A stretch of DNA of 64,000 bases from Nitrospirales bacterium (GTDB lineage Bacteria; Nitrospirota; Nitrospiria; Nitrospirales; UBA8639): assembly GCA_022828225.1 (NCBI GenBank), contig JAJEJG010000013.1:1-64000 (forward strand), written 5' to 3'. The notes under the pieces are model-generated. The model was not told the origin of the DNA. It was given only the letters and a program-made list of their open reading frames with translations, and did no database searches. This document shows positions 632 through 24,759 of this stretch, piece after piece. Each line of letters starts with the position of its first letter. Position 1 is the first letter of the stretch. Made by a program: the position numbers and the translations under genes.

Positions 632-2323
632 ATGGACACGAAACGATTCTTCTTGTACTTCATCGTGATAACCGCGTTGGCGTTGGCCGGGTGTGGCGGC
701 GGCGGTGGCGGTGGGATGGCTGGCACACCCACGGAACCGACGCAACCGACGGAGCCCACGCAACCCCCAGGCCCCACGCCTGAAGAAATGGCATTGAAGG
801 ACGCGCAGGACGCGGCCATGGCGGCCTACATGATGGCCATGGGCTACGTGAACGGCGCGAAGGACTACATAGCCATGGGGAACGCAATGAAGTACGCTGA
901 CATGGCCAAGAACGCCTCCGACATGGCGGCAGCGGCCACGACGTCGGCGATGGCCGAAGAGTACCAGATGAAGGCCGAGATGTACCGCGACGACGCGAAG
1001 GAAGCGGCCATGATGCGCGGCTTGGGAATCACCAAGCTGGCGAACATGACGGTTAACCAGCAGCAGATAGAAAACGCCGAACTTGAGGGAAGGCCCGCCG
1101 TCATGCCGCGCGTCAACGCAACAAGGGTTGCACCGGAGATGAAGGCGGCGGCCGAGAGAACCGCTGTTGTTACCGATGCAACAAGTAGCGTTTCTCAGGG
1201 ATCGTCAGGCACAGCTGCCGACAATTTGGGCAGTGCAACGGTAACACGCGATAACATGGGAAAATTCACGTATACGGTAACGCGAGGTACGGGAGGCTTG
1301 CTGCGCGGCGAAAATCCGACGGACCTGAAAAGCAGAGGGGATTGGCCGGGGACCCAGCTCGTGAGGACGGACGCTCCGGCTGGTGCTACCAATCGGGCGG
1401 GGATGACGTACGCCAACGTTTACTCGGACATTCAAGCGCCGACGCAGGCTTATGAGGCTGATGCTACCACTACTGCGTTTACAGTGGGTACGAGTGTGAT
1501 CGTGGCGGGCGATGTTGCGACTGACGGAAGTAATTTCGCGGCGACATTGAACGTCAACCCTGGGGATAATCAGGCACCGATCATGGGGCAGTTTCGGTGT
1601 ATTACGGCTCCGTGTTCGATCAGCGTGGATGCCGATGGAGAGATTGTAGCGAATACAGGCTATACCTTCCATGTGGGAACCGGTATCGCCAGGCAGGATT
1701 CCGACTATCTGGCATGGGGCGTCTGGTTGACAGTTCCGGGTGCGGTCATAGCTACCGGGGAATTTCAAGGTACTACGACTACCGGCGTATTTGCGAGCGG
1801 CAACGATGTGTTCGCAGTCAATGCAGCCCTCAAGGGCAAGGCGACGTATAACGGGGTCGCGACCGGCCTGTATTCGGCGGGCGGCATGGTCGAGAACTTT
1901 GACGCGGACGTCATGCTTGAAGCCAACTTCGGCGGAATCGTCGGGGCTGATTCCGTTACCACTGATGCTACAGCCAACGATGGGTTGCTCCTGGGCGTCG
2001 TCACCGGAATGGTCTCCAACATCAACGCCGGCGGCATGGCCGTGGACGGATCTCTGTCACTGTTGAGAGCCCCTGTCTTGACGGAAACCGGGGACAACGC
2101 CACTCCTAGTATATCCGGCTTTCTTGGGAGTACCGACGGTATCTTGGGTGGCGTGACCTACCGTGGCGCTTGGGGTGGCCAGTTCTACGGTCCCAATGCG
2201 CCGGCCGGCAGCTCGGCGGCGAGAATGCAGACCACATTCCCCACGACCGCCGCGGGAACCTTCGGCGCTGCGGCCGAGAATGGGGCGAGCCTCATCGGTG
2301 CCTTCGGCTCGTGGAAGCAGTAA
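632..2323 (+). CDS. Surface lipoprotein, Slam-substrate type (TbpB-like barrel)
   Basis: A 563-residue predicted lipoprotein. The signal peptide ends in the lipobox ALAGC with the acceptor Cys at residue 21, followed by seven glycines and a Pro/Thr/Glu linker. Poly-Gly after the lipid Cys is typical of Slam-exported proteins such as TbpB. Residues about 52-150 are Met/Ala-rich and probably helical. The rest is Gly/Thr/Ala-rich beta sequence ending in a TbpB-barrel-like signature (GVTYRGAWGGQFYGPNA, then AAGTFGAAAENGASLIGAFG). An AAAGGAG ribosome-binding site precedes the ATG. It heads a locus with a second lipoprotein and a Slam-like gene and is served by two tandem promoters. The ligand is unknown; transferrin or haem binding must not be assumed. 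The assignment rests on architecture, signature and context. Confidence 0.8.
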   Translation: MDTKRFFLYFIVITALALAGCGGGGGGGMAGTPTEPTQPTEPTQPPGPTPEEMALKDAQDAAMAAYMMAMGYVNGAKDYIAMGNAMKYADMAKNASDMAAAATTSAMAEEYQMKAEMYRDDAKEAAMMRGLGITKLANMTVNQQQIENAELEGRPAVMPRVNATRVAPEMKAAAERTAVVTDATSSVSQGSSGTAADNLGSATVTRDNMGKFTYTVTRGTGGLLRGENPTDLKSRGDWPGTQLVRTDAPAGATNRAGMTYANVYSDIQAPTQAYEADATTTAFTVGTSVIVAGDVATDGSNFAATLNVNPGDNQAPIMGQFRCITAPCSISVDADGEIVANTGYTFHVGTGIARQDSDYLAWGVWLTVPGAVIATGEFQGTTTTGVFASGNDVFAVNAALKGKATYNGVATGLYSAGGMVENFDADVMLEANFGGIVGADSVTTDATANDGLLLGVVTGMVSNINAGGMAVDGSLSLLRAPVLTETGDNATPSISGFLGSTDGILGGVTYRGAWGGQFYGPNAPAGSSAARMQTTFPTTAAGTFGAAAENGASLIGAFGSWKQ

Positions 2324-2334
2324 AGAGATAGACA

Positions 2335-2393
2335 GTGCCTTCGGGCACACAGGGCCTACCCCGGGCTGTTATGCAGCTTGGGGTAGGAGCCCT
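2335..2393 (+). other. Intercistronic hairpins between the two lipoprotein genes
   Basis: There are two consecutive stem-loops. The first, GTGCC-TTCG-GGCAC (2335-2348), has a stable UUCG tetraloop. The second (2351-2393) pairs CTACCCCGGGCTG with CAGCTTGGGGTAG through two G-U wobbles, with an outer AGGGC/GCCCT stem. No U-tract follows, so an mRNA-stabilising or processing role is more likely than termination. Confidence 0.6.
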
Positions 2394-2464
2394 CCTTGTG
2401 AAGAATGCTTCGCCTGCCCCCAGTTTTTTTCTTGTTCAGCAGAAAATATAAGGGAGATAGAAAA

Positions 2465-4129
2465 ATGTTCAGATCTCTGGGTTCGGTGTTGTGTACGGTG
2501 GTGATGGCGGCATTCGTTTTCGGTTGCGGCGGCGGTGGCGGCGGCGGTGGCGGCGGCACTGCTCAGCCGCCGGGTCCGCCTCCTCCGACCCCGCCGACCG
2601 ATGCGGAACAGATAAACCAAGCGAGGCAAATGGTCGCGACTATCCTTTCGAACGCTCAAACGCGAGCGGGGGCGGCAAGCTCGACGGCGAGTGCGCTGGG
2701 GACCAATCAAGACGCCACGGCCGATCAAATCGCAAGCGCTGGCGATCAAAATACAGCGGTGCAAGCCGCCCTGGCGGATATCGTAAGTGCGAACACCGCT
2801 GCGCTTGCGGCCACGACGCCGGCCGCGGCGCAAGCGGCGCAGACGGCCGCGACAACGGCTCAAAACACTCTGAACATAGCCGCAGATGCGATAGGTGCCA
2901 TCCAAAGGGCCGTGCAGGCGGTCACGGACGCTCGCACACGACGCGAAATGGACCAGATCGCTTTGACGAACAACTCCTCGCTCATCCAGCACCTGAGGGA
3001 CAACAAGCTTCTCTCCGACGCCGTGTTGGGCGCAGCGGGCGCCAACCTGACAGCGGCAAGCATTGTCGTAGGCCCGACCGGCGCGACGAATCGCGCCGAG
3101 GCTGATACCGAGACCTGCATTGCGCCATGTGCCATATTCCCTGGGGATACCGGGACGGGCGCAACAAGGGTTACTGGACAGCGGACGGTTCTGCTGCCGC
3201 CGACTGGTACGATTACATCAGACAGTACGACGCCTGCACTCAGCGGAACGGGCCGCCTCCCCCATGGATTTGATATGAAAAACGCCGACGGCAGCGTCTT
3301 CGTCAACGCCTACACGAACATTTCCAAAACGAGACTCAACGTAAGAACAAGAACGGCTATCGTGAATGACGATCCAGATACGGGAGGCGACCAGCGTTAT
3401 GAAAATAGAGATTTCGAAGACACCGACTATCTTCTCGCCGGTATCTGGATGACGGTGGACAACGCAAATCTGAGTGCTTCCAGGATAACCGCATTCGCGT
3501 ACGGGAGCCAGCCAATCCCAGCCTCTGATAATTTCTGTGTTGGAATTGAAAATGTTAATAATGAAGATGGAACACTTGACAGATCATGCGGAGAGACTAC
3601 TGGATTAAACAGCATCAGCACTTTTGTGGATGACGGTAAAGATTTCACGGCCACCTACAAGGGAGATGCGAACGGCGCCTACCTCGCGGGAGGGGATTCG
3701 AGCTATTTCACCGGGGACGTTACGCTCACCGCCGAGTTCAAGAATCCGACAGGCACTGGAACTGACGGCTCGGGCAGCATCGAGGGCGCGGTCACGAACA
3801 TCGTCGCTGGTGGACAGTCCATGGCGGGCAGCATTGAATTACAGAAACACACCTTTGCAGATGCCATAGGAGCGGCCTTTGGGGATGATGCCGTCGGTGT
3901 GGTTGATGGCAAATCCTTCAGCGGTAACTGGACGGGCCAGTTTTTCGGAACGAGAGTAACAAGGAGTTCAAGAGACGTACCGGCGGCGAATGGCACCCGA
4001 AGAAGAACAATCACAACTACGTATTCGGCAGAGGCTCCCGGTTCGGTCGCGGGCACCTTTTACGCCACCCAGCAGAGCAATCCGGCGGGAAGCGCCGCCT
4101 TCATCGGGGCATTCGGCGCGGAGCGGTAA
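2465..4129 (+). CDS. Second surface lipoprotein, Slam-substrate type
   Basis: A 554-residue predicted lipoprotein. The ATG at 2465 was chosen over an upstream in-frame ATG at 2405 because it follows AAGGGAG and begins a proper signal peptide ending in AFVFGC. The Cys is followed by ten glycines, then a Pro-rich linker and a long Ala/Thr/Gln-rich, probably helical segment (residues about 40-180). The C-terminal part is beta-rich and ends with a GNWTGQFFG motif and AGTFYATQQS...AAFIGAFGA, the same barrel signature as the upstream lipoprotein. It differs greatly from that protein outside the ends, suggesting diversification of a surface antigen family. The next gene is the Slam-like translocator, beyond a strong terminator hairpin. 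The ligand is unknown. Confidence 0.8.
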   Translation: MFRSLGSVLCTVVMAAFVFGCGGGGGGGGGGTAQPPGPPPPTPPTDAEQINQARQMVATILSNAQTRAGAASSTASALGTNQDATADQIASAGDQNTAVQAALADIVSANTAALAATTPAAAQAAQTAATTAQNTLNIAADAIGAIQRAVQAVTDARTRREMDQIALTNNSSLIQHLRDNKLLSDAVLGAAGANLTAASIVVGPTGATNRAEADTETCIAPCAIFPGDTGTGATRVTGQRTVLLPPTGTITSDSTTPALSGTGRLPHGFDMKNADGSVFVNAYTNISKTRLNVRTRTAIVNDDPDTGGDQRYENRDFEDTDYLLAGIWMTVDNANLSASRITAFAYGSQPIPASDNFCVGIENVNNEDGTLDRSCGETTGLNSISTFVDDGKDFTATYKGDANGAYLAGGDSSYFTGDVTLTAEFKNPTGTGTDGSGSIEGAVTNIVAGGQSMAGSIELQKHTFADAIGAAFGDDAVGVVDGKSFSGNWTGQFFGTRVTRSSRDVPAANGTRRRTITTTYSAEAPGSVAGTFYATQQSNPAGSAAFIGAFGAER

Positions 4130-4172
4130 GTCACGTATAGGCCCGCGTAGCGGACCGTTTTACAGTCAGACC

Positions 4173-4207
4173 AAAGAAGGGCAGCCAGTTGGCTGCCCTT
4201 CTTTTTT
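4173..4207 (+). terminator. Rho-independent terminator or attenuator ahead of Slam
   Basis: A perfect 15-bp stem (AAAGAAGGGCAGCCA against TGGCTGCCCTTCTTT) with a 2-nt loop is followed by a T-run. It lies between the lipoprotein stop and the Slam start at 4218. The second Slam locus has an equivalent hairpin at the same place, so partial read-through probably sets a low translocator-to-cargo ratio. Confidence 0.85.
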
Positions 4208-4217
4208 GCTATGCCGT

Positions 4218-5801
4218 ATGATAGTCGCAATCCTGTTCCCGCTCCTCTATGTGCTCCTGCTTGCTGTACCGCCGGCCTTGGCTGCGGACGGGGCAGCTTC
4301 CGACTCCGCATCGGGCGCACAGCCGAAGACGTCTTCCGCCTTGACGCCTGAGACGCCACCGGCAGCCTGCCGGGACTGCGCGGGGGTGCAATATTTTCGC
4401 CCTTCTTCCCCCCTCACTCCGGCTTCCCCCCTCACCCCAGCCCTCTCCCGCCAGGGGAGAGGGGGTGAAAAGGGTCAGGGGAGAGGGTTGTCTGGGGCTC
4501 CGGCGTCTCCCGGGCAGTCGCATTTGTCCTCCGATCCGCGCGTCAGGACCGCGCGCATCCTGGTCGGACGCAACCGTTTCCCCGAAGCCTTGGAGATTCT
4601 GCGGCCGCTGGCTCCGGACCATCCGGACCAGACCGACGTGCGATTCCTCCTGGGTTTGGCTGCGAGCCGGTGGTCCCAGGTACCCGGCCTCGAGGATGAA
4701 AAACGGCTCGCGCTCCTGGACGAGGCCATCGCGGCGTTCCGGTCCATCCTGATCCGGCGGCCGGATCTGGTGCGCGTGCGCCTTGAACTGGCCCTGGCCT
4801 TTTATCTGAAGGAAGATGACTCCCTGGCCCGCGAGCATTTCGAGCGGGCCCTGGTGGGGAAACCGCCCGCGGCCCTGGCCGCCAACGTCCAACGGTTTCT
4901 GACCATCATGCGGGCCCGGAAACGCTGGAACGGGTATTTCGGGTTCTCCGTTTCCCCCGATACCAATATCAATGCCGCGTCCGATGCGGAGATCATCTAT
5001 ATCCAGGGTCTGCCGTTCCGCCGGGGGCAGGAGGGCCGCATCAGTTCCGGTCTCGGCCTTGTGGGCTGGGGGGGCGGTGAATACCAGTACCCGCTGGCCG
5101 AACGCTGGCGCCTGCGCACGGGGCTCAACCTCAACCACCGGGAGTATAAGGGGAGCCAGTTCGACCAGACGTTTGTGGGCGGCTACGTGGGGCCGCGCTG
5201 GTTGTTCAGCCGCAATACCGAGATGAGCCTGCTGGCCACCGCCAGCCAGCGCTGGTTCGGTCAATACAGCTTCAACTATGATTACGGCGCGCGCCTGGAA
5301 GTCCTGCACCGGGTCTACGCGGGCCTGCAACTAAACGGCCGGGCCTTGTGGAGCGACCGCAAATACCAGCAGCAGAAGTTCCTGGAAGGGCCGCTCATGG
5401 TGTTCTCCCTGGGCGCGTCCTACGTGCCCTTCCCGATTATGCAGGTCAACGCCCTGGTCGGCTATCAGCAGCAGGAGGCGGTGGCGGATCGCTGGGACAG
5501 CACCGGGTACTGGACGCAGGTGGGCACGAACGTGGCCTTGCCGTGGGGCTTTACCGTGGGCGCCAGCGCCGAGTTCCGGTGGACGGATTACAAAGCCGGG
5601 TGGTTCCCGTTCCTGGGCGATAACACGACCCCCCGCGAGGACCAGACCCGCATCCTGTCGGCCACGCTGCTCAATCGCGCGATCACGGTGTTCGGCTTCA
5701 GCCCCCAAGTCGCGTTTTCCAACCAGGTCCGCACCTCCAACGCCCAACTCTGGGACTTCAAACGCAACCTGGTAGAAATGCGCTGGGTAAGGCAGTTCTA
5801 A
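4218..5801 (+). CDS. Slam-like surface lipoprotein assembly modifier (DUF560)
   Basis: A 527-residue outer-membrane protein expected to move the two upstream lipoproteins to the cell surface. It has a signal peptide ending near PPALAAD and a low-complexity linker. A TPR-like helical periplasmic domain occupies residues about 100-230 (repeated motif FPEALEILRPLAPDHPDQTD). The C-terminal barrel of about 290 residues starts at GYFGFSVSPDTNINAASD and ends VEMRWVRQF, with the terminal Phe typical of outer-membrane barrels. It is closely related to the Slam at 19881-21479. The ATG at 4218 lacks a clear ribosome-binding site; TTG at 4206 is an alternative. The linker is partly encoded by a family F repeat (about 4404-4497) that the paralogue lacks. 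Confidence 0.8.
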   Translation: MIVAILFPLLYVLLLAVPPALAADGAASDSASGAQPKTSSALTPETPPAACRDCAGVQYFRPSSPLTPASPLTPALSRQGRGGEKGQGRGLSGAPASPGQSHLSSDPRVRTARILVGRNRFPEALEILRPLAPDHPDQTDVRFLLGLAASRWSQVPGLEDEKRLALLDEAIAAFRSILIRRPDLVRVRLELALAFYLKEDDSLAREHFERALVGKPPAALAANVQRFLTIMRARKRWNGYFGFSVSPDTNINAASDAEIIYIQGLPFRRGQEGRISSGLGLVGWGGGEYQYPLAERWRLRTGLNLNHREYKGSQFDQTFVGGYVGPRWLFSRNTEMSLLATASQRWFGQYSFNYDYGARLEVLHRVYAGLQLNGRALWSDRKYQQQKFLEGPLMVFSLGASYVPFPIMQVNALVGYQQQEAVADRWDSTGYWTQVGTNVALPWGFTVGASAEFRWTDYKAGWFPFLGDNTTPREDQTRILSATLLNRAITVFGFSPQVAFSNQVRTSNAQLWDFKRNLVEMRWVRQF

Positions 5802-6126
5802 AGGCTGGCGCTATGCGGGGTTTCGTCCCCCGCCCTCTCTGTCATGCCCGACGCTTGTCCCCGACTTGATCGGGGATCCAGGCGATCCATGGCATCCAGC
5901 GTCTTTGCTTTTCCTCATTTTGTGAAAAAACAACTCTGGATCCTCGCGTTCGCAAGGATGACAGCAAAAGGCATCCAGTGTCTTTGATCTTTTTCCTTTG
6001 TCTTTTCCTGCATCTGTGAAGACAACGACACTGGATTCCCGCTAAAAACATGCGGGAATGACAGCAAAGAACCCTCGCCCCCGGTGGGAGAGGGAGAGAA
6101 AGGGCGGGAATGACAGACGGGGAAGA
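5802..6126. repeat. Intergenic block of family A, F and G repeats
   Basis: A family G hairpin (GCGGGGTTTCGTCCCCCGC near 5817) is followed by several family A arms (TGTCATGCCCGACG, ATCCAGTGTCTTT, GACACTGGATTCCCGC) and a family F-like stretch at 6069-6100. No gene is seen. Confidence 0.75.
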
Positions 6127-16949: not shown

Positions 16950-17523
16950 AGGCTGCGGGGTTTCGGCGCCGGGATCTTGCGGCATGGGATGCCAGCGCTA
17001 CAGATGCAAGAAAGGGAACAACCCTGAATTCTCGCGTGCGCGAGGATGACGACCTTTTCTGTCATGCCCGGCTCGATCGGGCATCCAGTGTCTTGGCTTT
17101 TTTCGTTTGTACAGAAGAAGGAAGGCAAAGGCGAAAACCAAAGACGCTGGATGCCCGATTACTAATGTCGGGCATGACAGGAGGAAACGTCGAGGATGAC
17201 AGAAAAGGCAGGTGGTCGTGTTGTTTTCCTCCCCTTTGTAAGGGGAGGTCAGGTGGGGTAGAGCCCGATCGTCGGATGACGACAAATGCCTCTACCTCCC
17301 CTTGCCCCTCCTTACAAAAGAGGGGAATGAAAAAGCAAAGCCGCTGGATGCCCGATCAAGCCTGGAATCCAGTTCTTGTTGCCGCGGAGGACAAGAAAAA
17401 AAGATGGTGAAATAAACCAGTCCAAGGGGCCTGAGCGAAGCCTTGACAAAGGGACAACCGCATGAATAATGAGACTGGTTGGTCGTTCGGATGAGTCAGT
17501 GAGAGGCATGAAGGAGGCAAGCC
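16950..17523. repeat. Intergenic block: G, A and C repeats
   Basis: A family G arm follows the ruvB stop (16956-16970). Family A arms occupy 17025-17185, and two facing family C units lie at 17225-17262 and 17293-17330. A partial family A arm ends near 17372. The last 120 bp before the HicB-like gene look unique and contain its ribosome-binding site (AAGGAGG at 17511-17517). Confidence 0.7.
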
Positions 17524-17892
17524 ATGAAGAAACCGGCAACCGTCACACTAAACGTCCTGGGCGTTCACGAGGACGAGATGTGGTGCGCGATTGCACTGGA
17601 GATGAGTTTGCGAGGGTATGGCGAAACGTTTGAAAAAGCGCTTGAGGATTTAAAGGAAACGATCATGGCTCAAGTGACGTATGCCATGGACCATCATCAG
17701 ACGATCGATCACATTTTCATTCCGGCCGAACCGCACTATTTTGAACGGTATGCCCTAGCAAAACGCGACGCGCTGAAAAACCGGTTCCTGAACCGCAGAC
17801 AAACTAAAGCTACGGATTATCGAATCGAACATCTCCCCATTCCTCAATTAAAACGTTCATCCTCCAAGCTTGCACTTGAACCTGTTTCATAA
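17524..17892 (+). CDS. HicB-like antitoxin
   Basis: A 122-residue protein with an N-terminal HicB-type fold (VLGVHEDEMWCAIALEMSLR, then GYGETFEKALEDLKETIM) that resembles a degraded RNase H domain. The C-terminal tail is basic and lacks an obvious helix-turn-helix. A strong AAGGAGG ribosome-binding site lies at ideal distance. The downstream HicA-like gene starts 8 bp after the stop. The antitoxin precedes the toxin, the reverse of the commonest hicAB order. Codon use is AT-richer than in surrounding housekeeping genes. Confidence 0.7.
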   Translation: MKKPATVTLNVLGVHEDEMWCAIALEMSLRGYGETFEKALEDLKETIMAQVTYAMDHHQTIDHIFIPAEPHYFERYALAKRDALKNRFLNRRQTKATDYRIEHLPIPQLKRSSSKLALEPVS

Positions 17893-17900
17893 AGAGGTTC

Positions 17901-18128
17901 ATGGGAAAAGGATTAACCTATAAAGAGGTTGTTGCCGCTTTAAAAGAACATGATCCTCTTTTTGTAATGGACAAAATTCTGGGCAAAGGCAGTCATCGCA
18001 TGGTGACACACCCAAAGACCAGACAACACTACCCACTTCCCTATCATGGGTCCAAGACGATCATTCCTCAGGGAATGCAACGGGATCTTATCCGGATTTT
18101 CGACCTTCCGTCCGATATTTTTTCATAA
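17901..18128 (+). CDS. HicA-like mRNA interferase toxin
   Basis: A 75-residue protein of the HicA (YcfA-like) double-stranded-RNA-binding fold. The key motif KGSHRMVTHP contains the catalytic His, and LPYHGSKTIIPQGMQRDLIR supplies the conserved second strand and helix. Known members cleave mRNA and are neutralised by HicB. It follows the HicB-like gene by 8 bp in one transcription unit. The low GC content compared with its neighbours suggests horizontal gain. Confidence 0.78.
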   Translation: MGKGLTYKEVVAALKEHDPLFVMDKILGKGSHRMVTHPKTRQHYPLPYHGSKTIIPQGMQRDLIRIFDLPSDIFS

Positions 18129-18156
18129 CACATCTGCGGCAGAGGCATCCCCTTCG

Positions 18157-18712
18157 CCCTGCCCTCTCCGTTGTTGTAGCCGCCGCATCTTATGCGGCGC
18201 GGAGAGGCCGTCACTAAAGAAGCGCCATAAGATGGCGCGGCTAGGAAGGCCTCTACCTCCCCTTCGCCCCTCCTTACAAAGGAGGGGAATGAAGAATCCA
18301 AGACGCTGGATGCCGTTTACCCCTTGCTGTCATTCCCGGCTTGACCGGGAATCCAGTGTCGTTCGTCTTCACGAACGAAGATCAAAAATCAAAGACGCTG
18401 GATGCCCGATCGGGGTCGGGCATGACAGAAGGAGGGGGCCTGCGGGCGGGGCTGCGCCCCGGTCCCGCAAATTCTATGTGGGGGCGAGGACTGTCTGAGC
18501 GTAGCGAGTTCCGCAGCCCAAACAACCGGGACTGGGGCTTTGCATTTGTCTGTCATTCCCGACATTTTTAATCGGGAATCCAGTGTCTTTCGCCTTCACA
18601 ACCAGAAGAAAATTCAAAGCCGCTGGATGCCCGATCGGGGTCGGGCATGACAGAGGTGGAGGGGGCGAGGGAGGAAGCTAGAACTGCCGGACCCAGCGCA
18701 TTTCCACGAGGC
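18157..18712. repeat. 0.55-kb direct repeat, copy 1
   Basis: This composite of repeats (an inverted GCCGCATCTTATGCGGC element, family C, two family A elements and a family D unit) ends in 35 bp of Slam 3' end. The same ordered series recurs in the same orientation at 19325-19915, where it runs into the complete Slam gene. The two copies flank the DUF4160/DUF2442 gene pair, so the block is a segmental duplication rather than chance co-occurrence of single repeats. Confidence 0.8.
18678..18712 (-). pseudogene. Slam C-terminal remnant
   Basis: Read on the minus strand this encodes SLVEMRWVRQF and a stop, the exact terminus of both full Slam proteins. Homology ends upstream at about 18712, where it becomes unrelated sequence. 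This is a third, deleted Slam or a by-product of the segmental duplication that includes 19881-19915. Confidence 0.75.
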
Positions 18713-18732
18713 TGTTGATGGTGAAGGGCCTG

Positions 18733-18981
18733 TCAGCGCATGATTTGACCATTGCGCCATAACTCATATTCACTGATATCGATATCCTTGTTCCATACCA
18801 CGGCATAACCGCCTTGCTCCACTTGAGCGGACTTGAATAACGCAGGGTTTCTCAAAGGAGCAAACATTTCCTTTTCCAGCAATGGAGTCACGTCATAGGT
18901 TTTGATTTGCGTATTATCAAACGTGACCAAGAGCGTATGATCATCAAGAGCTTCGACGGACTGTACCTTGGGATAGGGCAT
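18733..18981 (-). CDS. DUF2442-family protein
   Basis: An 82-residue protein starting at the ATG at 18981, two bases after the DUF4160 stop; a longer frame to 19062 would overlap that gene. It has the DUF2442 pattern: VQSVEALDDHTLLVTFDN, a KTYDVTPLL strand, then GGYAVVWNKDIDISEYELW. Such proteins are frequently coded next to DUF4160 and are suspected toxin-antitoxin partners, but no biochemical role is established. Its position between two direct repeats suggests a mobile cassette. Confidence 0.8.
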   Translation of the reverse strand: MPYPKVQSVEALDDHTLLVTFDNTQIKTYDVTPLLEKEMFAPLRNPALFKSAQVEQGGYAVVWNKDIDISEYELWRNGQIMR

Positions 18982-18983
18982 GA

Positions 18984-19232
18984 CTACTCCAACGGGGGTA
19001 ATGGACGGAATGTCTGAGAAGTCCACATTTCGTTCAATTCGCTTCTGTGCAACGTTCCCCATTCAACAACAAGCTTTTTGGCTCTTTTCGGTAGATCGCC
19101 TTCTATCATTTCCAAGGTATTGATATGAAACAACCCCACATGTTCACCATAAACCGCATGGAAATGTGGGGGTGGATGATCACCAAAGAACAGTTTTATA
19201 ACAATTCCGTAAAATCTCGCAATTTCAGGCAT
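18984..19232 (-). CDS. DUF4160-family protein
   Basis: An 82-residue protein with the DUF4160 signature DHPPPHFHAVYGEH and an N-terminal FYGIVIKLFF strand. It lies immediately upstream of the DUF2442 gene with a 2-bp gap, the canonical pairing. The His-rich motif could bind metal or serve catalysis, but the function is undefined. The pair is AT-richer than the surrounding DNA and is bracketed by 0.55-kb direct repeats. Confidence 0.85.
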   Translation of the reverse strand: MPEIARFYGIVIKLFFGDHPPPHFHAVYGEHVGLFHINTLEMIEGDLPKRAKKLVVEWGTLHRSELNEMWTSQTFRPLPPLE

Positions 19233-19324
19233 ATCGTATCTCGAATAGATGTTGTAACAATCTTCCGACAGCGTAAAGGATGGGAGAGATTACCACCTTG
19301 ACGCTAAGAGGGAAAGCCCCCTCA

Positions 19325-19915
19325 CCCTGCCCTCTCCGTTGTTGTAGCCGCCGCATCTTATGCGGCGCGGAGAGGCCGTCAAGAAAAACCCAAACAGCGC
19401 CATAAGATGGCGCGGCTAGGAAGGCCTCTACCTCCCCTTCGCCCCTCCTTACAAAGGAGGGGAATGAAGACTCCAAGAGGCTGGATGCCGTTTACCCCTT
19501 GCTGTCATTCCCGGCTTGACCGGGAATCCAGTGTCGTTCGTCTTCACGAACGAAGATCAAAAATCAAAGACGCTGGATGCCCGATCGGGTCGGGCATGAC
19601 AACAAGTGCAAATGCTTTGTCCTGGCGCCTGCGGGCGTGGCTGCGCCCCGGTCCCGCTTTTCTATTTGGGGGCGAGGACTGTCTTAGCGAAGCGAGTTCC
19701 GCAGCCCAAGTAACCGGGACTGGGGCTTTGCATTTGTCTGTCATTCCCGACATTTTTAATCGGGAATCCAGCGTCTTTCGCCTTCACAACCAGAAGAAAA
19801 TTCAAAGCCACTGGATGCCCGATCGAGCCGGGCATGACAGAAGGAGGGGGCGGGGGCGAAACCCCGCATAGCGCCGGCGCTTAGAACTGCCGGACCCAGC
19901 GCATTTCCACGAGGT
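19325..19915. repeat. 0.55-kb direct repeat, copy 2
   Basis: It has the same order of elements as 18157-18712, including the GCCGCATCTTATGCGGC palindrome, family C, two family A elements and family D. It ends within the Slam 3' end; a family G hairpin (19855-19873) is added just downstream of the Slam stop. The shared termini define the duplication boundaries. No independent gene is seen in 19233-19880. Confidence 0.8.
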
Positions 19916-21479
19916 TGCGTTTAAAGTCCAGCAGTTGTGCGTTGGATTCGCGGACCTGGTTGGAGAATGCGACCTGGGGACTGAACCCGAACACCGTGAT
20001 CGCCCGGTTCAGCAGCGTGGCCCCGAGGATGCGGGTGTGGTCCTCACGGGGCACCGAGTTATCCGGGATGAACGGAAACCACCCGTTCCCGTAATCCGTC
20101 CACCGGAACTCGGCGCTGAGGCCTACGGTAAATCCCCACGGCAACGCCACGTTCGTCCCCACCCGCGTCCAGTACCCGGTACTATCCCAGTTCTGCGCTT
20201 GCGCAGCCTGCAGCGAATAACCCACCAGGGCGTTGACCTGCACGGTCGGGAAGAGCACGTAGTTCGCGCCCAGGGAAAACACGCTGAGCGATCCTGTCAG
20301 GCCACGCTGCTGCTGGTATTTGCGGTCGCTCCACAAGGCCCGGCCGCTGACCTGCAAGCCGGCGAAGACCCGGTGCAGCACTTCCAGGCGCGCGCCATAG
20401 TCGTAGTTGAAGCTGTATTGACCGAACCAGCGCTGGCTGGCGGTGGCCAGCAGGCTCATCTCGGTAGTACGGCTAAACAACCAGCGCGGCCCCACATAGA
20501 TCCCGGCGTACGTTTGGTCAAAATTCTTCCCTTTATATTCCCGGTGGTTGAGATCGAACCCCGAGCGCAGGCGCCAGCGGTCGGCCAAGGGATACTGGTA
20601 TTCAGCCCCGCCCCAGCCCACCACGCCGATATCCGAACTGGCTCGCTGACCAGCCCCCCGGCGGAACGGCAGGCCGTTGATATAGATGATCTCTGCGTCC
20701 GACGCGGCGTTGATGTTCGTGTCCGGGGCCAGGGAGAAGCCGAAATACCCGCGCCAGCGGCGCCGGCCCCGCATGATGCTCAAAAACCTGGTGACGTTCT
20801 CGACCAAGACCTCCGGCGGCCTTCCCACCAAGGCCCGCTCGAAATGCTCGCGGGCAAGGCCGTCGTCCTGCTTCAGATAGAAGGCCAGGCCCAGTTCCAG
20901 GCGAACCCGCACGAGATCCGGCCGGCGGATCAGGATGGACCGGAAGGCCGCAATGGCCTCGTCCAGGAGCGCCTCCCGTTGCTCGTCATTGAGCCCGCGC
21001 GTCTGGGACCCCCGCACGGCGGCCAAACCCAGCAGAAACCGAACGTCCGTCTGGTCAGGATGCTCCGACACAACGAGTGGCCGCAGGATCTTCAGAGCCT
21101 CGGCAAAGCGGTTACGTTGAACCAGCGCCCGCGCGGTATTGACTCGCGGGTCGGAGGACAGGTGAGACGGTTCGGTCGGGCTCTCCGTTTTGAGTTCGGC
21201 TGGCCCGCCGGAGGTGGCCTTGGGCTGTTTCGCCGCAGAGGCTTTCCGTGGCGGAGCGGCATCAGAAGCCGCTGGCTCTTCGGCTGAAGTACCTTCCGGC
21301 TGGGTAGTGGACGGACGAAAATATTGCAACCCGCAGTCCCGGCACGCCTTAGGCGGAGTATTGGGCGTGAGAGAGGACGGGGTATCCGGCGGAGCCGCTG
21401 ACGCGCCGCCGGACGCAGCCACGCTCGGCGTGACAGAAAGCAGAAGCATGAAGATGAGTGCGCAAAGAGTCGCCAACAT
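19881..21479 (-). CDS. Slam-like surface lipoprotein assembly modifier, second copy
   Basis: A 532-residue paralogue of the Slam at 4218-5801. It has a signal peptide (LCALIFMLLLSVTPSVAASG) and a CRDCGLQYFRP motif shared with the paralogue. A Pro/Ala/Lys linker is followed by the TPR-like domain (RFAEALKILRPL) and a barrel starting at GYFGFSLAPDTNINAASDAE and ending VEMRWVRQF. Its linker (residues about 75-120) is ordinary charged sequence where the paralogue has repeat-derived sequence. The start was set at 21479, just after a terminator hairpin; an upstream ATG at 21527 lies inside that hairpin. It follows the truncated lipoprotein gene on the same strand. Confidence 0.8.
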   Translation of the reverse strand: MLATLCALIFMLLLSVTPSVAASGGASAAPPDTPSSLTPNTPPKACRDCGLQYFRPSTTQPEGTSAEEPAASDAAPPRKASAAKQPKATSGGPAELKTESPTEPSHLSSDPRVNTARALVQRNRFAEALKILRPLVVSEHPDQTDVRFLLGLAAVRGSQTRGLNDEQREALLDEAIAAFRSILIRRPDLVRVRLELGLAFYLKQDDGLAREHFERALVGRPPEVLVENVTRFLSIMRGRRRWRGYFGFSLAPDTNINAASDAEIIYINGLPFRRGAGQRASSDIGVVGWGGAEYQYPLADRWRLRSGFDLNHREYKGKNFDQTYAGIYVGPRWLFSRTTEMSLLATASQRWFGQYSFNYDYGARLEVLHRVFAGLQVSGRALWSDRKYQQQRGLTGSLSVFSLGANYVLFPTVQVNALVGYSLQAAQAQNWDSTGYWTRVGTNVALPWGFTVGLSAEFRWTDYGNGWFPFIPDNSVPREDHTRILGATLLNRAITVFGFSPQVAFSNQVRESNAQLLDFKRNLVEMRWVRQF

Positions 21480-21488
21480 GACAAGGGC

Positions 21489-21524
21489 AAAAAAGAAGGG
21501 CAGCCGGTGAGGCTGCCCTTCTTT
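21489..21524 (-). terminator. Terminator or attenuator between lipoprotein and Slam, locus 2
   Basis: On the minus strand AAAGAAGGGCAGCC and GGCTGCCCTTCTTT pair around a 4- to 5-nt loop and are followed by a T-run. This is the counterpart of the hairpin at 4173-4207, with the same stem core but a different loop. The position relative to the Slam start is conserved. Confidence 0.85.
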
Positions 21525-21572
21525 CATCCATACAGTCCGCTAGGCTACGCGGACTTTTGATAGGCCTAGACG

Positions 21573-22877
21573 TTACTGCTTCCGTGCGCCGAAGCCGCCG
21601 GCCACCGAGCCATTCGAGAAGACGGAGTTGAACTCGCCAACCACGGAACCCGGGGCAACTCTGGTGCTGCCATCGCCGGTGGACGTGGTTTCAGGCGTTG
21701 GACCGTGATATGTGCCGCTCAACGAGCCCATACTTCCGGCTACGCCGCCGCTGGCCGTGCCGGTGAACGTGTTAGCGCCGGTCGCGCGAGTACCCCTGAG
21801 GGCCACGGACCACCCGTTCGCCTCGCCGCCAGACAACACGAAGTCGGAGATGGTGCCGGTGATGGTGTTCAGCAGGTTGGGTGCAAGCCGACCTGATTCA
21901 TCAACACCTGTGGTAGTGGTATCATCCACCGTCTGCCCGAAATACGCCGTCAGATTGACGTCGGCTCTGAAGTGGCCGGAGGTGGCCGATGCTTCAGTCG
22001 CGTCCGGGTTGACTACGCTATGGACATACACACCCGTGGCGCCGCCGGAGTAAGTCGCCGAGCCCGTGACGACGTCGAGTTCGCTCCCTGTGGAAGCCGC
22101 AACCGACGAACCGGCGAAGGTTTCGACCTCGTTGTAGGTGAGCACGCCATTGCTGTCCGTCGTTCTCTTCAGCCAGAAACCGTAATGCAGGTAGTCGGCA
22201 TCGTCCACATCGGAGGTGGCGCCCGCATTGGGAGTGAAGGTCCAGACATCACCTGCCATCGCCGACACCACGCCCTTGTCGTTGACCGTGGCGCTGCAGG
22301 CACCAGTACCGGTGCAGACGTACGTGCCAGGCGCACCATTGTAGGTACCCGTGAATCTTCGTTCGTTCACGTCCGCCGTTCCCGAATCGTCCGTATACGT
22401 GATGGTTTGCACACCCCCGTCAGCGGCGGCGGCTGGTCCGCGAATATTCATCAAGCTAAGAGTATTTGTAATGGGGCTGCCGGTACCGTCGTCACCTTGG
22501 CCACTGGTATCTAAGGCATTGCTTGTGATTATCCGCAAAGACCTGTAGTCCGTGCCACCAGTGGTCGCAGGGTTCTCGTTCAACACTTGGTTTGCTACTC
22601 GCGTGAACATCGTGGCCTTGGGCGCTTCGATGTCGGTGGTGACCATCACGACTTCCTCCTCCACGTTGCCGTCGGAGTCCGCTGCCATCGTGCGGGTGTG
22701 CATGGTGGTGCCGCCACCCAAGTCCATGGCCTGCGTGAATTTCGGATCGTCCATACCTGCCATGGCGGGGTCGGTGATCTTGATCTCCGTGCCGTCCCGA
22801 TCGCGCGAGATCGCCAGACCGTACACGTCGTCACTAGCGTCGGTGGATGTGGTTTGACCATCTGATTGAGGAGTCAA
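21573..22877 (-). CDS. Surface lipoprotein of Slam type, 5'-truncated
   Basis: The open frame gives 434 residues from a TTG at 22877. It has no signal peptide or lipobox, unlike the two related proteins at 632 and 2465. The beta-rich body and its end (GSLSGTYHGPTPE ... GSVVGEFNSVFSNGSVAGGF) match the TbpB-like barrel signature of the other two. The region upstream, to 23130, shows no similarity to the missing N-terminus, so the 5' end has probably been lost by rearrangement. An AGGAG 13-17 bp before the TTG could allow translation, but the product would stay in the cytoplasm. It may serve only as a recombination donor. Confidence 0.65.
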   Translation of the reverse strand: MTPQSDGQTTSTDASDDVYGLAISRDRDGTEIKITDPAMAGMDDPKFTQAMDLGGGTTMHTRTMAADSDGNVEEEVVMVTTDIEAPKATMFTRVANQVLNENPATTGGTDYRSLRIITSNALDTSGQGDDGTGSPITNTLSLMNIRGPAAAADGGVQTITYTDDSGTADVNERRFTGTYNGAPGTYVCTGTGACSATVNDKGVVSAMAGDVWTFTPNAGATSDVDDADYLHYGFWLKRTTDSNGVLTYNEVETFAGSSVAASTGSELDVVTGSATYSGGATGVYVHSVVNPDATEASATSGHFRADVNLTAYFGQTVDDTTTTGVDESGRLAPNLLNTITGTISDFVLSGGEANGWSVALRGTRATGANTFTGTASGGVAGSMGSLSGTYHGPTPETTSTGDGSTRVAPGSVVGEFNSVFSNGSVAGGFGARKQ

Positions 22878-23129
22878 GAGAAACGCGAATCTCCTGTATT
22901 CATGGGTGTTTTACAAGATCGATGATTTTTCATTGCCACACAATTGCCACCGGCCACAACAGAAAGAGAACAGCCTCGTGGCATCCCAGAAGCAAGACGG
23001 GGCCTTCCGGCTAGATGATGGAAATTTAACAGGAGATTCGATCATGCCGGTTATCGAATCTCCTGAGAGGTGGCTCGACTATTTTGAACAGTTTGCGGGC
23101 TGTCGATAAGTGGCTCTCCACGTGTGACC
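22878..23129. other. Junction sequence with a 12-bp inverted repeat
   Basis: This lies between the truncated lipoprotein and the duplicated promoter region. AGGAGATTCGAT (23031-23042) and ATCGAATCTCCT (23053-23064) form a perfect inverted repeat with a 10-nt loop. The loop contains an ATG (23044) opening a 21-codon frame, and the stem sequesters its AGGAG. AGGAGATTCG also occurs inverted at 22889-22898. GGTGGCAATTGTGTGGCAAT (minus strand, about 22930-22952) resembles GTGGTAATTTGGTGGTAACA just before the integrase. No confident gene is seen. Confidence 0.5.
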
Positions 23130-23403
23130 GCGCCCGCCCGCACCGCACAATCGACAAACCCACCAACAAAAAAAATAAGAAAAAAAGAAATACAAAGGGC
23201 TCTACTTACGCATTCGTCAAACGTAGAATCCGACACAGTTTGACGGTCTTGTAGTATTCAAGTTCTTTCCAACAACCAACAAAACAAAAGGAATGAACCA
23301 GAGAGGAAGGCTTGACTTACCCACCCGCCGAAAGTAGAATCGTGCGACACTCGCAAATTGTATTTGTATACTTGACCTACTCTCTATAACTCATCAATCA
23401 AAG
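23130..23403 (+). repeat. Lipoprotein promoter region, copy 2, abutting integrase
   Basis: A near-identical, same-orientation copy of 350-618. Promoter P2 (TTGACT 23312-23317, TAGAAT 23335-23340) is unchanged, while the P1 -35 box is TCTACT. After AATCAAAG (23396-23403), where locus 1 continues into its ribosome-binding site and lipoprotein gene, unrelated sequence begins and leads to the integrase. The copy was probably severed from its lipoprotein gene by insertion. Confidence 0.85.
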
Positions 23404-23574
23404 CCGCCACCCGTAATCCTACGTAGTCCACGTCGTTCCATTAAATTCCATAAAACGCTAGTGTTCATAGGTCTTTTGTGAGATTTTGTGCCTTGCATTT
23501 TCTCTTAGGCTCCTGTATGATCCCTGAAATAAAGTGGTAATTTGGTGGTAACATTTACAGGGAGAGATTGCCGC

Positions 23575-24759
23575 ATGGGGCACTTGACGGAGGCCAAAAT
23601 CAAGTCCATTCAAAAGGCGGGCCGGTATCGTGACGGCGATTGTTTGTTTCTGAACGTGAGGGAGTCCGGCACCAAAAGTTGGGTGGTTCGCGTGAAAATC
23701 CGACGCGGTCCCCGCCGGGATTTAGGCATCGGCCCGTACCCCTTGCTGGGCCTGAAAGAGGCGCGCCTTCGCGCCTGGGAGTTGCGCAAACAAGTCTTCA
23801 ACGGCGTGGACCCGTTAGGCGAGCGAAAGCAAGCTGCCATGCCGACCTTTCAGCACGTCGCGCGGCAGTACTATGAGACAAACAAACCCCGCTGGAAACC
23901 GGGGCGGGCTGCCGATCAGTGGTTACGGGTGGTCGAGAAATACGCCGTCCCGGTCTTCGGCCACAAGCCGGTGGACCGGCTCGACCAGGACGATATGCTC
24001 GCCGTGCTCCGGCCGATCTGGACGACGATCCCGGAAGCGGCCCGGATACTGCGGCAACGGCTGCGGTTGATTCTCAAATGGTGTCAAGCGCACCGGTACG
24101 TCACGGAGAACGTGGCCGGCGAAGTGATTGACGGGGCCCTCGCACCCATGCCGGCTATCCGAGCCCATCATCGCAGCCTCCCGTATGAGGCCGTCGGCGC
24201 GGCCCTGGACACGATTGACGCGAGCACGTCCTGCTTGTCGGCCAAATTGTGCCTCCGGTTTCTCATCTTGACGGCCACCCGCAGCCAGGAAGCCCGGGGC
24301 ACGCGATGGCAGGAGATTGACACGGAGAAACGACTCTGGACCATTCCCGCGTCCCGCATGAAGACGAACCACGAGCATCACGTGCCCTTGTCGGATGAGG
24401 CGGTGCGGGTGTTGGACCGCGCGCGAGGCCTTGAGGATGGCAGTGGATTCGTCTTTCCGTCGCCGAGGAAGAAAGGCGAAGCGTTATCCGTGGTGACCCT
24501 GACGTGGCTGCTCGACACGGCGGGCCTGTTAGACCAAACCGTGGTGCATGGCTTTCGGTCGTCCTTCAGGACCTGGAGTGAAGAACAGACGACGGCCGAC
24601 TTTGCCGTGAAAGAACAAGCCTTGGCGCATCAGGTGGGGTCGGCCGTCGAACGCGCCTATACCCGCACGGACCTGTTAGCCAAACGGCGAGTCCTCATGC
24701 AACGCTGGAGTGACTACCTCACCAGGAACACCCCGGCCCAGGTCATCAATCTCCGGTAA
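23575..24759 (+). CDS. Tyrosine recombinase/integrase (DUF4102 N-terminus)
   Basis: A 394-residue phage/island integrase. It has an N-terminal DUF4102-like arm-binding domain (LTEAKIKSIQKAGRYRDGDC; LGIGPYPLLGLKEAR), a core-binding helical domain and a catalytic domain. The catalytic domain carries the Arg (TATRSQEARG), the HGFR box, a His in ALAHQVG and the nucleophile Tyr in AYTRTDLL. The start was set at the ATG at 23575 after GGGAGAG. It should catalyse site-specific insertion and excision, and a HigBA pair lies directly downstream as cargo. The sequence GTCCACGTCGTTCCATTAAA, then TTCCATAAAACG (23425-23459), could be part of an attachment site. No tRNA is adjacent. Confidence 0.93.
   Translation: MGHLTEAKIKSIQKAGRYRDGDCLFLNVRESGTKSWVVRVKIRRGPRRDLGIGPYPLLGLKEARLRAWELRKQVFNGVDPLGERKQAAMPTFQHVARQYYETNKPRWKPGRAADQWLRVVEKYAVPVFGHKPVDRLDQDDMLAVLRPIWTTIPEAARILRQRLRLILKWCQAHRYVTENVAGEVIDGALAPMPAIRAHHRSLPYEAVGAALDTIDASTSCLSAKLCLRFLILTATRSQEARGTRWQEIDTEKRLWTIPASRMKTNHEHHVPLSDEAVRVLDRARGLEDGSGFVFPSPRKKGEALSVVTLTWLLDTAGLLDQTVVHGFRSSFRTWSEEQTTADFAVKEQALAHQVGSAVERAYTRTDLLAKRRVLMQRWSDYLTRNTPAQVINLR

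Follow-up and report, generated by a model that had tools for sequence, protein, structure and literature searches.

Three consecutive genes at positions 632-5801 of the DNA analysed here raise the question of whether a Slam-type system for displaying lipoproteins exists outside the Proteobacteria and, if so, what it would do there. Surveys have found the family, also termed the type 11 secretion system (T11SS), throughout the Proteobacteria, with the characterised members coming from animal-associated bacteria (PMC8406197, PMC12282271, PMC5449769). The window, by which we mean the whole 64,000-nucleotide stretch, belongs to a 2.36-Mb genome of the Nitrospirota genus bin75, so that the original prediction of a non-proteobacterial organism was correct. 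The same prediction had called the organism environmental, which is misleading, because the genus, named Ca. Nitrosymbion, comprises nitrite-oxidising Nitrospirales whose main known habitat is marine sponges, although of its 12 metagenome-assembled genomes (MAGs) two were recovered from cold seeps and one from a coral (PMC11812461). These bacteria were dense in the larvae of one sponge, and their genomes average 2.36 Mb with a GC content of 56.9% (PMC11812461). The system is therefore found once more in a largely host-associated bacterium.

A Slam translocon adjoining two lipoprotein genes

The third gene, Slam1 (4218-5801, + strand), lies in an open reading frame of 3990-5801, and its signal-peptide start is the ATG at 4218. 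The signal peptide is followed by a Cys-containing linker, a TPR region and a DUF560/SlipAM barrel. Slam1 matched the Pfam family SlipAM (PF04575) over residues 237-522 with 78.5 bits (E 7.9e-22), where the curated cut-off is 22. The N-terminal repeats matched TPR_16, TPR_19 and TPR_14 at cut-off; the TPR_Slam profile, at 25.8 bits, fell short of the 35.2 required. Most Slams of the genus have, between the signal peptide and a variable linker, a two-Cys CRDCG(L/V)QYFRPS-like motif, which lies at 4362-4400 in the window.

The two genes upstream encode putative lipoproteins. Cargo 1 (632-2323, + strand; 563 amino acids) starts with an SPII signal peptide ending in the lipobox LAGC (Cys21), followed by seven Gly, a helical N-terminal region and a TbpB-type barrel encoded at about 1835-2320. 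Cargo 2 (open reading frame 2405-4129, + strand; probable start 2465) carries the lipobox VFGC (Cys21), then ten Gly, long helices and a C-terminal TbpB-type barrel encoded at about 3644-4126. The lipoboxes were read from the sequence; they agree with the lipid Cys and poly-Gly stretch described earlier. Near-identical intergenic repeats of the form ctggatgcccgatcgggtcgggcatgacag were numerous at 17000-19900 and 5820-6120, often as pairs in opposite orientation.

Searches of the PDB by sequence with the Slam or the cargos gave no useful match, and no Pfam profile, TbpB_B_D included, nor the slam_lipo profile (NCBIfam NF041636) matched either window cargo. Among 30 related cargos, two matched slam_lipo (best 3.4e-9) and two matched TbpB_B_D (best 3.1e-4). 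AlphaFold2 models, built from 30-row alignments of related cargos, predicted with high pLDDT that both proteins end in a beta barrel and left much of the N-terminal half at low confidence. In cargo 1, the strands are predicted at residues 402-416, 419-433, 455-466, 473-485, 494-505, 508-519, 539-548 and 553-562. Its only three Foldseek matches in the PDB with E < 0.001 were fHbp (5nqx), NHBA (6cuj) and the C-lobe of TbpB (5kkx), each with probability 1.0. For cargo 2, the top two were NHBA (6cuj, 0.99) and TbpB (4qq1, 0.96), which were modest matches with E of about 0.01. Models and Foldseek together point to an eight-stranded C-terminal barrel in both cargos, with ten strand segments between residues 394 and 553 in the model of cargo 2. 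The two-lobe architecture of TbpB was absent from the models, each cargo having one barrel. Surface display of the lipoproteins TbpB, fHbp and NHBA depends on Slam (PMC12282271; PMC7857515), and the C-terminal barrel is the domain common to T11SS cargos (PMC12282271).

An ordinary porin as the third gene, with the lipoproteins remaining inside and facing the periplasm, can be regarded as highly improbable. Other barrel families did score on it, weakly (OMP_b-brl_3, E 0.032), but SlipAM lies far over its cut-off, TPRs stand in front of the barrel and the adjoining genes have the predicted fold of Slam cargo. Profile searches and structure prediction, which were used to check what could have overturned the original prediction, neither assigned the third gene to another outer membrane protein family nor lacked a TbpB-type barrel in the lipoproteins. 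Sequence, predicted fold and gene order identify Slam1 as a genuine Slam/T11SS translocon, and the earlier reading of a Slam-type locus with TbpB-like terminal barrels holds.

Helices were predicted at the N-termini of both cargos with low to moderate confidence (cargo 1, several within residues 50-137; cargo 2, residues 46-161), in line with the Ala-rich helical regions noted before. From these it had been proposed that both ligand and role may be new. The part on the ligand stands; a new role does not follow from the helices alone, because proteobacterial T11SS cargos also have such regions (PMC12282271).

Promoter-like sites, a terminator-like hairpin and the expression of Slam1

Two promoter-like sequences precede cargo 1 on the + strand. 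A consensus scan found P1 (422-450; TTGACT-17-TAGAAT), whose leader is partly conserved in the genus, and P2 (533-561; TTGACT-17-TAGAAT), which is nearly unchanged in several loci of the genus and in a second copy of the leader described below. Between cargo and Slam lies a terminator-like hairpin with a T tract (4173-4207, + strand). Of 47 loci compared, 43 had a hairpin and T tract in this position, whereas simple shuffling of the bases predicts 5.7. Since the T tract ends 10 nt ahead of the Slam1 ATG, there is no room after it for a separate promoter, and Slam1 is thus probably made by read-through of the hairpin. Alternatively, transcription may start at a promoter within the cargo gene and read through the hairpin from there. 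The hairpin as a feature unique to sponge loci was rejected: one or two of seven plasmid T11SS reference loci were similar, with a clear terminator-like site in Acinetobacter and a site inside the coding region in Sagittula.

A second locus and orphan cargos

A second Slam and cargo locus, missed in the first reading, was found in the same window at 19881-22877 (- strand). It comprises Slam2 (19881-21527), which is 75% identical to Slam1, and a cargo gene (21573-22877) that is probably a remnant, having neither a signal peptide nor the N-terminal stretch that its relative in L024/L040 keeps. In both window loci and in many relatives, a cargo gene adjoins the translocon in the order cargo, then Slam. 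Beside the locus-2 cargo, and inverted relative to it, lies a second copy of the cargo-1 leader (23128-23403, + strand; 90% identical), which points toward a phage-type integrase gene (23542-24759). Locus 2 looks rearranged and, as it stands, probably cannot display its own cargo. The region 22870-23403 is possibly the site of a past inversion; no full second copy of the locus-2 spacer was found in the genome. In this spacer, next to the integrase gene, CGAATCTCCTG recurs as short copies of either orientation.

Profile searches of the same genome found orphan cargos on contigs 22, 16 and 12. The orphan on contig 22 (L130:5420-6784) has one in-frame TAA where a relative has Gln. This interrupted gene, taken with the locus-2 remnant, suggests that members of the cargo repertoire are decaying.

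Whether the lipoproteins act like TbpB and haemophilin, capturing metal or haem and passing it on to a TonB-dependent receptor, can be examined in the same genome. Known functions of T11SS cargos include those of TbpB, LbpB and haemophilins (PMC12282271), and a profile search found eight plug-domain matches in the genome, of which one, on contig 12, neighbours a weakly matching orphan cargo. However, none of the eight falls in the window, the nearest on the contig being at 389 kb, and cargos 1 and 2 are single-barrelled, in contrast to the two lobes of TbpB. We regard capture as unlikely, and as less probable than the contact role proposed below.

Distribution in the genus and across phyla

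Genome-wide counts were obtained from profile searches. High-scoring PF04575 matches were found in 10 of 14 genomes of the genus, which include MPMZ (bin75, Aplysina aerophoba), WTGX, VXOF, JAPPLK and OX638327. The cargo profile matched 13 of the 14 and none of 27 other genomes of the family and order. Two genomes of the genus (G006 and G008) have cargo genes with no detected Slam, perhaps due to broken assemblies. That PF04575 is unique to bin75 within the Nitrospirota was rejected, as further, mostly weaker matches raised the count to 49 of 296 Nitrospirota genomes. Cargo genes are multicopy: all 11 genomes taken from several lineages had cargo matches, 1 to 19 each, although two matches may come from a single protein.

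We scanned 84,980 species with a Slam alignment, seeding with two genus-conserved peptides and keeping the best 80 of 153 matches; the scan is therefore biased to close kin. These best 80 matches represent 78 distinct loci, mostly from sponge-microbiome MAGs, many of them by inferred origin, and cover Nitrospirota, Nitrospinota, Gamma-, Alpha- and Deltaproteobacteria, Binatota and Ca. Synechococcus spongiarum. In most of these relatives, the Slam adjoins genes for highly variable surface lipoproteins. Within the same best 80 of 153, 22 of the 78 loci carry the jk18x prefix, as for Ircinia MAGs (PMC9531527), four are from Aplysina bins (PMC5649159) and one is from Ca. Synechococcus spongiarum; 25 carry RHO, APA, CAR or COS prefixes, which fit the demosponge species of another study (PMC8163846), and 21 carry p16x, CO36 or SB0662 prefixes. 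For the latter 46 loci, the sponge origin was inferred from the name prefixes, and five of the 78 were left unassigned.

The pattern might then reflect the sampling of numerous sponge MAGs combined with proteobacterial contigs placed in the bins of other phyla. The biased seed, the retention of the best 80 of 153 matches and the origins inferred from prefixes fit such an explanation. So do four loci that appear misplaced, three labelled Chloroflexota and one Acidobacteriota (L061, L066, L078 and L084), yet grouping with proteobacterial sequences, L084 being close to L079 of the Rhodospirillales. Membership of Chloroflexota and of short-contig Acidobacteriota was not accepted, with misbinning probable and some short-contig phylum labels unreliable. 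Against this explanation, the system occurs in Nitrospirota (OX638327), Gammaproteobacteria (OY282433 and OY282378) and Binatota (OY282432) in records whose titles denote whole chromosomes, host not named, and a 267-kb Nitrospinota contig from Aplysina also has it. At both cyanobacterial loci (L098, Ca. Synechococcus spongiarum; L112, a Prochlorococcaceae MAG), clpP lies near the Slam, and among the family's 251 genomes just 7 had a Slam, these two MAGs included. Sampling and misbinning thus seem rather improbable as the source of the pattern as a whole.

Possible ancient spread of the translocon and divergence of the cargos

In an 86-row tree, the Slams of Nitrospirota (support 100), Nitrospinota (100), deltaproteobacteria (99) and Cyanobacteriota (100) each formed one group, and those of Proteobacteria were scattered. 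With two divergent Slams of a second type and two very long sequences omitted, 84 rows split from eight references with an SH-aLRT of 99; these references are few and distant, and nearer non-sponge kin may exist. Because the Slams of each of the four lineages group together, the sequences fit better with ancient spread followed by mostly vertical descent. Rampant recent transfer between phyla as the main picture was rejected, since each lineage forms one well-supported group.

The cargos changed much more than their leaders. In eight cargos of the genus compared with cargo 1, conservation was 41-80% in the upstream DNA and 59-92% over the 66 bases that open the coding region, but only 26-33% for the mature protein and 29-38% for its final 165 residues. 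Slams of the genus are 53-76% identical. Close relatives of the locus-2 cargo were found in Nitrospinota and in Gamma-, Alpha- and Deltaproteobacteria, with E down to 2e-101. A long N-terminal tandem repeat, GRPDTDLTLAEITALM-like, was seen in a cargo (L046:5581-7623) of the Nitrospirales chromosome OX638327.

Comparison with known systems and proposed function

The locus resembles the Slam1 and Slam2 systems of Neisseria and Moraxella (T11SS cluster 1), in which a TPR and DUF560 translocon likewise accompanies eight-stranded-barrel lipoproteins (TbpB, fHbp and NHBA). It differs from them in its phylum, in having a single barrel behind a long helical region and in that no TonB receptor adjoins it, and the identity to the Slam-like region of Neisseria gonorrhoeae is about 22% by tblastn. 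By description, Pls-like T11SS cargos are similar, with a helical or disordered N-terminal region and then a C-terminal barrel, but they have been described from Proteobacteria only (PMC12282271). Among plasmid records, the nearest Slam, with 31.8% identity over 78%, is that of Novosphingobium pentaromativorans (NZ_CP009292; listed source, mud sediment). There, a 'Transferrin-binding protein-like solute binding protein' and the Slam have the identical gene order, whereas the cargo was missed by our cargo profile, the gap is one base and the terminator is absent. The system is thus new in taxonomic and ecological range, not in kind.

We consider it very likely that the locus is a Slam/type 11 secretion system displaying lipoproteins in the following way. 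Behind tandem sigma-70-like promoters, cargo 1 would be transcribed together with a hairpin terminator just before the Slam start that passes only part of the transcripts, so that one translocon could serve many cargo molecules. The two lipoproteins would be made with SPII signal peptides, exported via Sec, acylated on Cys21 and carried by Lol to the outer membrane. Slam1 would recognise the C-terminal barrel and transfer the cargo over the outer membrane, leaving it lipid-anchored outside with its variable N-terminal part exposed. The translocation step is inferred by analogy with work on Neisseria, Moraxella and Xenorhabdus; Slam1 as the translocon for TbpB has been shown in a reconstituted in vitro system (PMC9090332).

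From the surface position, variability and habitat, we judge it about even, or slightly less likely than not, that the variable ectodomains make contact with the sponge, with neighbours or with phages. Few sponge-symbiont lineages encode known secretion-system genes, and most carry eukaryote-like proteins (Robbins et al., PMC8163846); in the literature searched, we found no paper linking T11SS to sponge symbionts. More tentatively, and with somewhat less assurance than for such contact, one translocon clade may long ago have reached the various phyla that now live together in sponges, with a large, fast-changing lipoprotein repertoire in each lineage serving as a common 'symbiont coat' by which host, neighbours or phages recognise the cell, and in which leaders and translocon stay constant and ectodomains are exchangeable. 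If true, Nitrospirota, Nitrospinota, Binatota, sponge cyanobacteria and Proteobacteria would have a means of surface display in common, and with it a concrete, testable candidate for the way in which they encounter their host.
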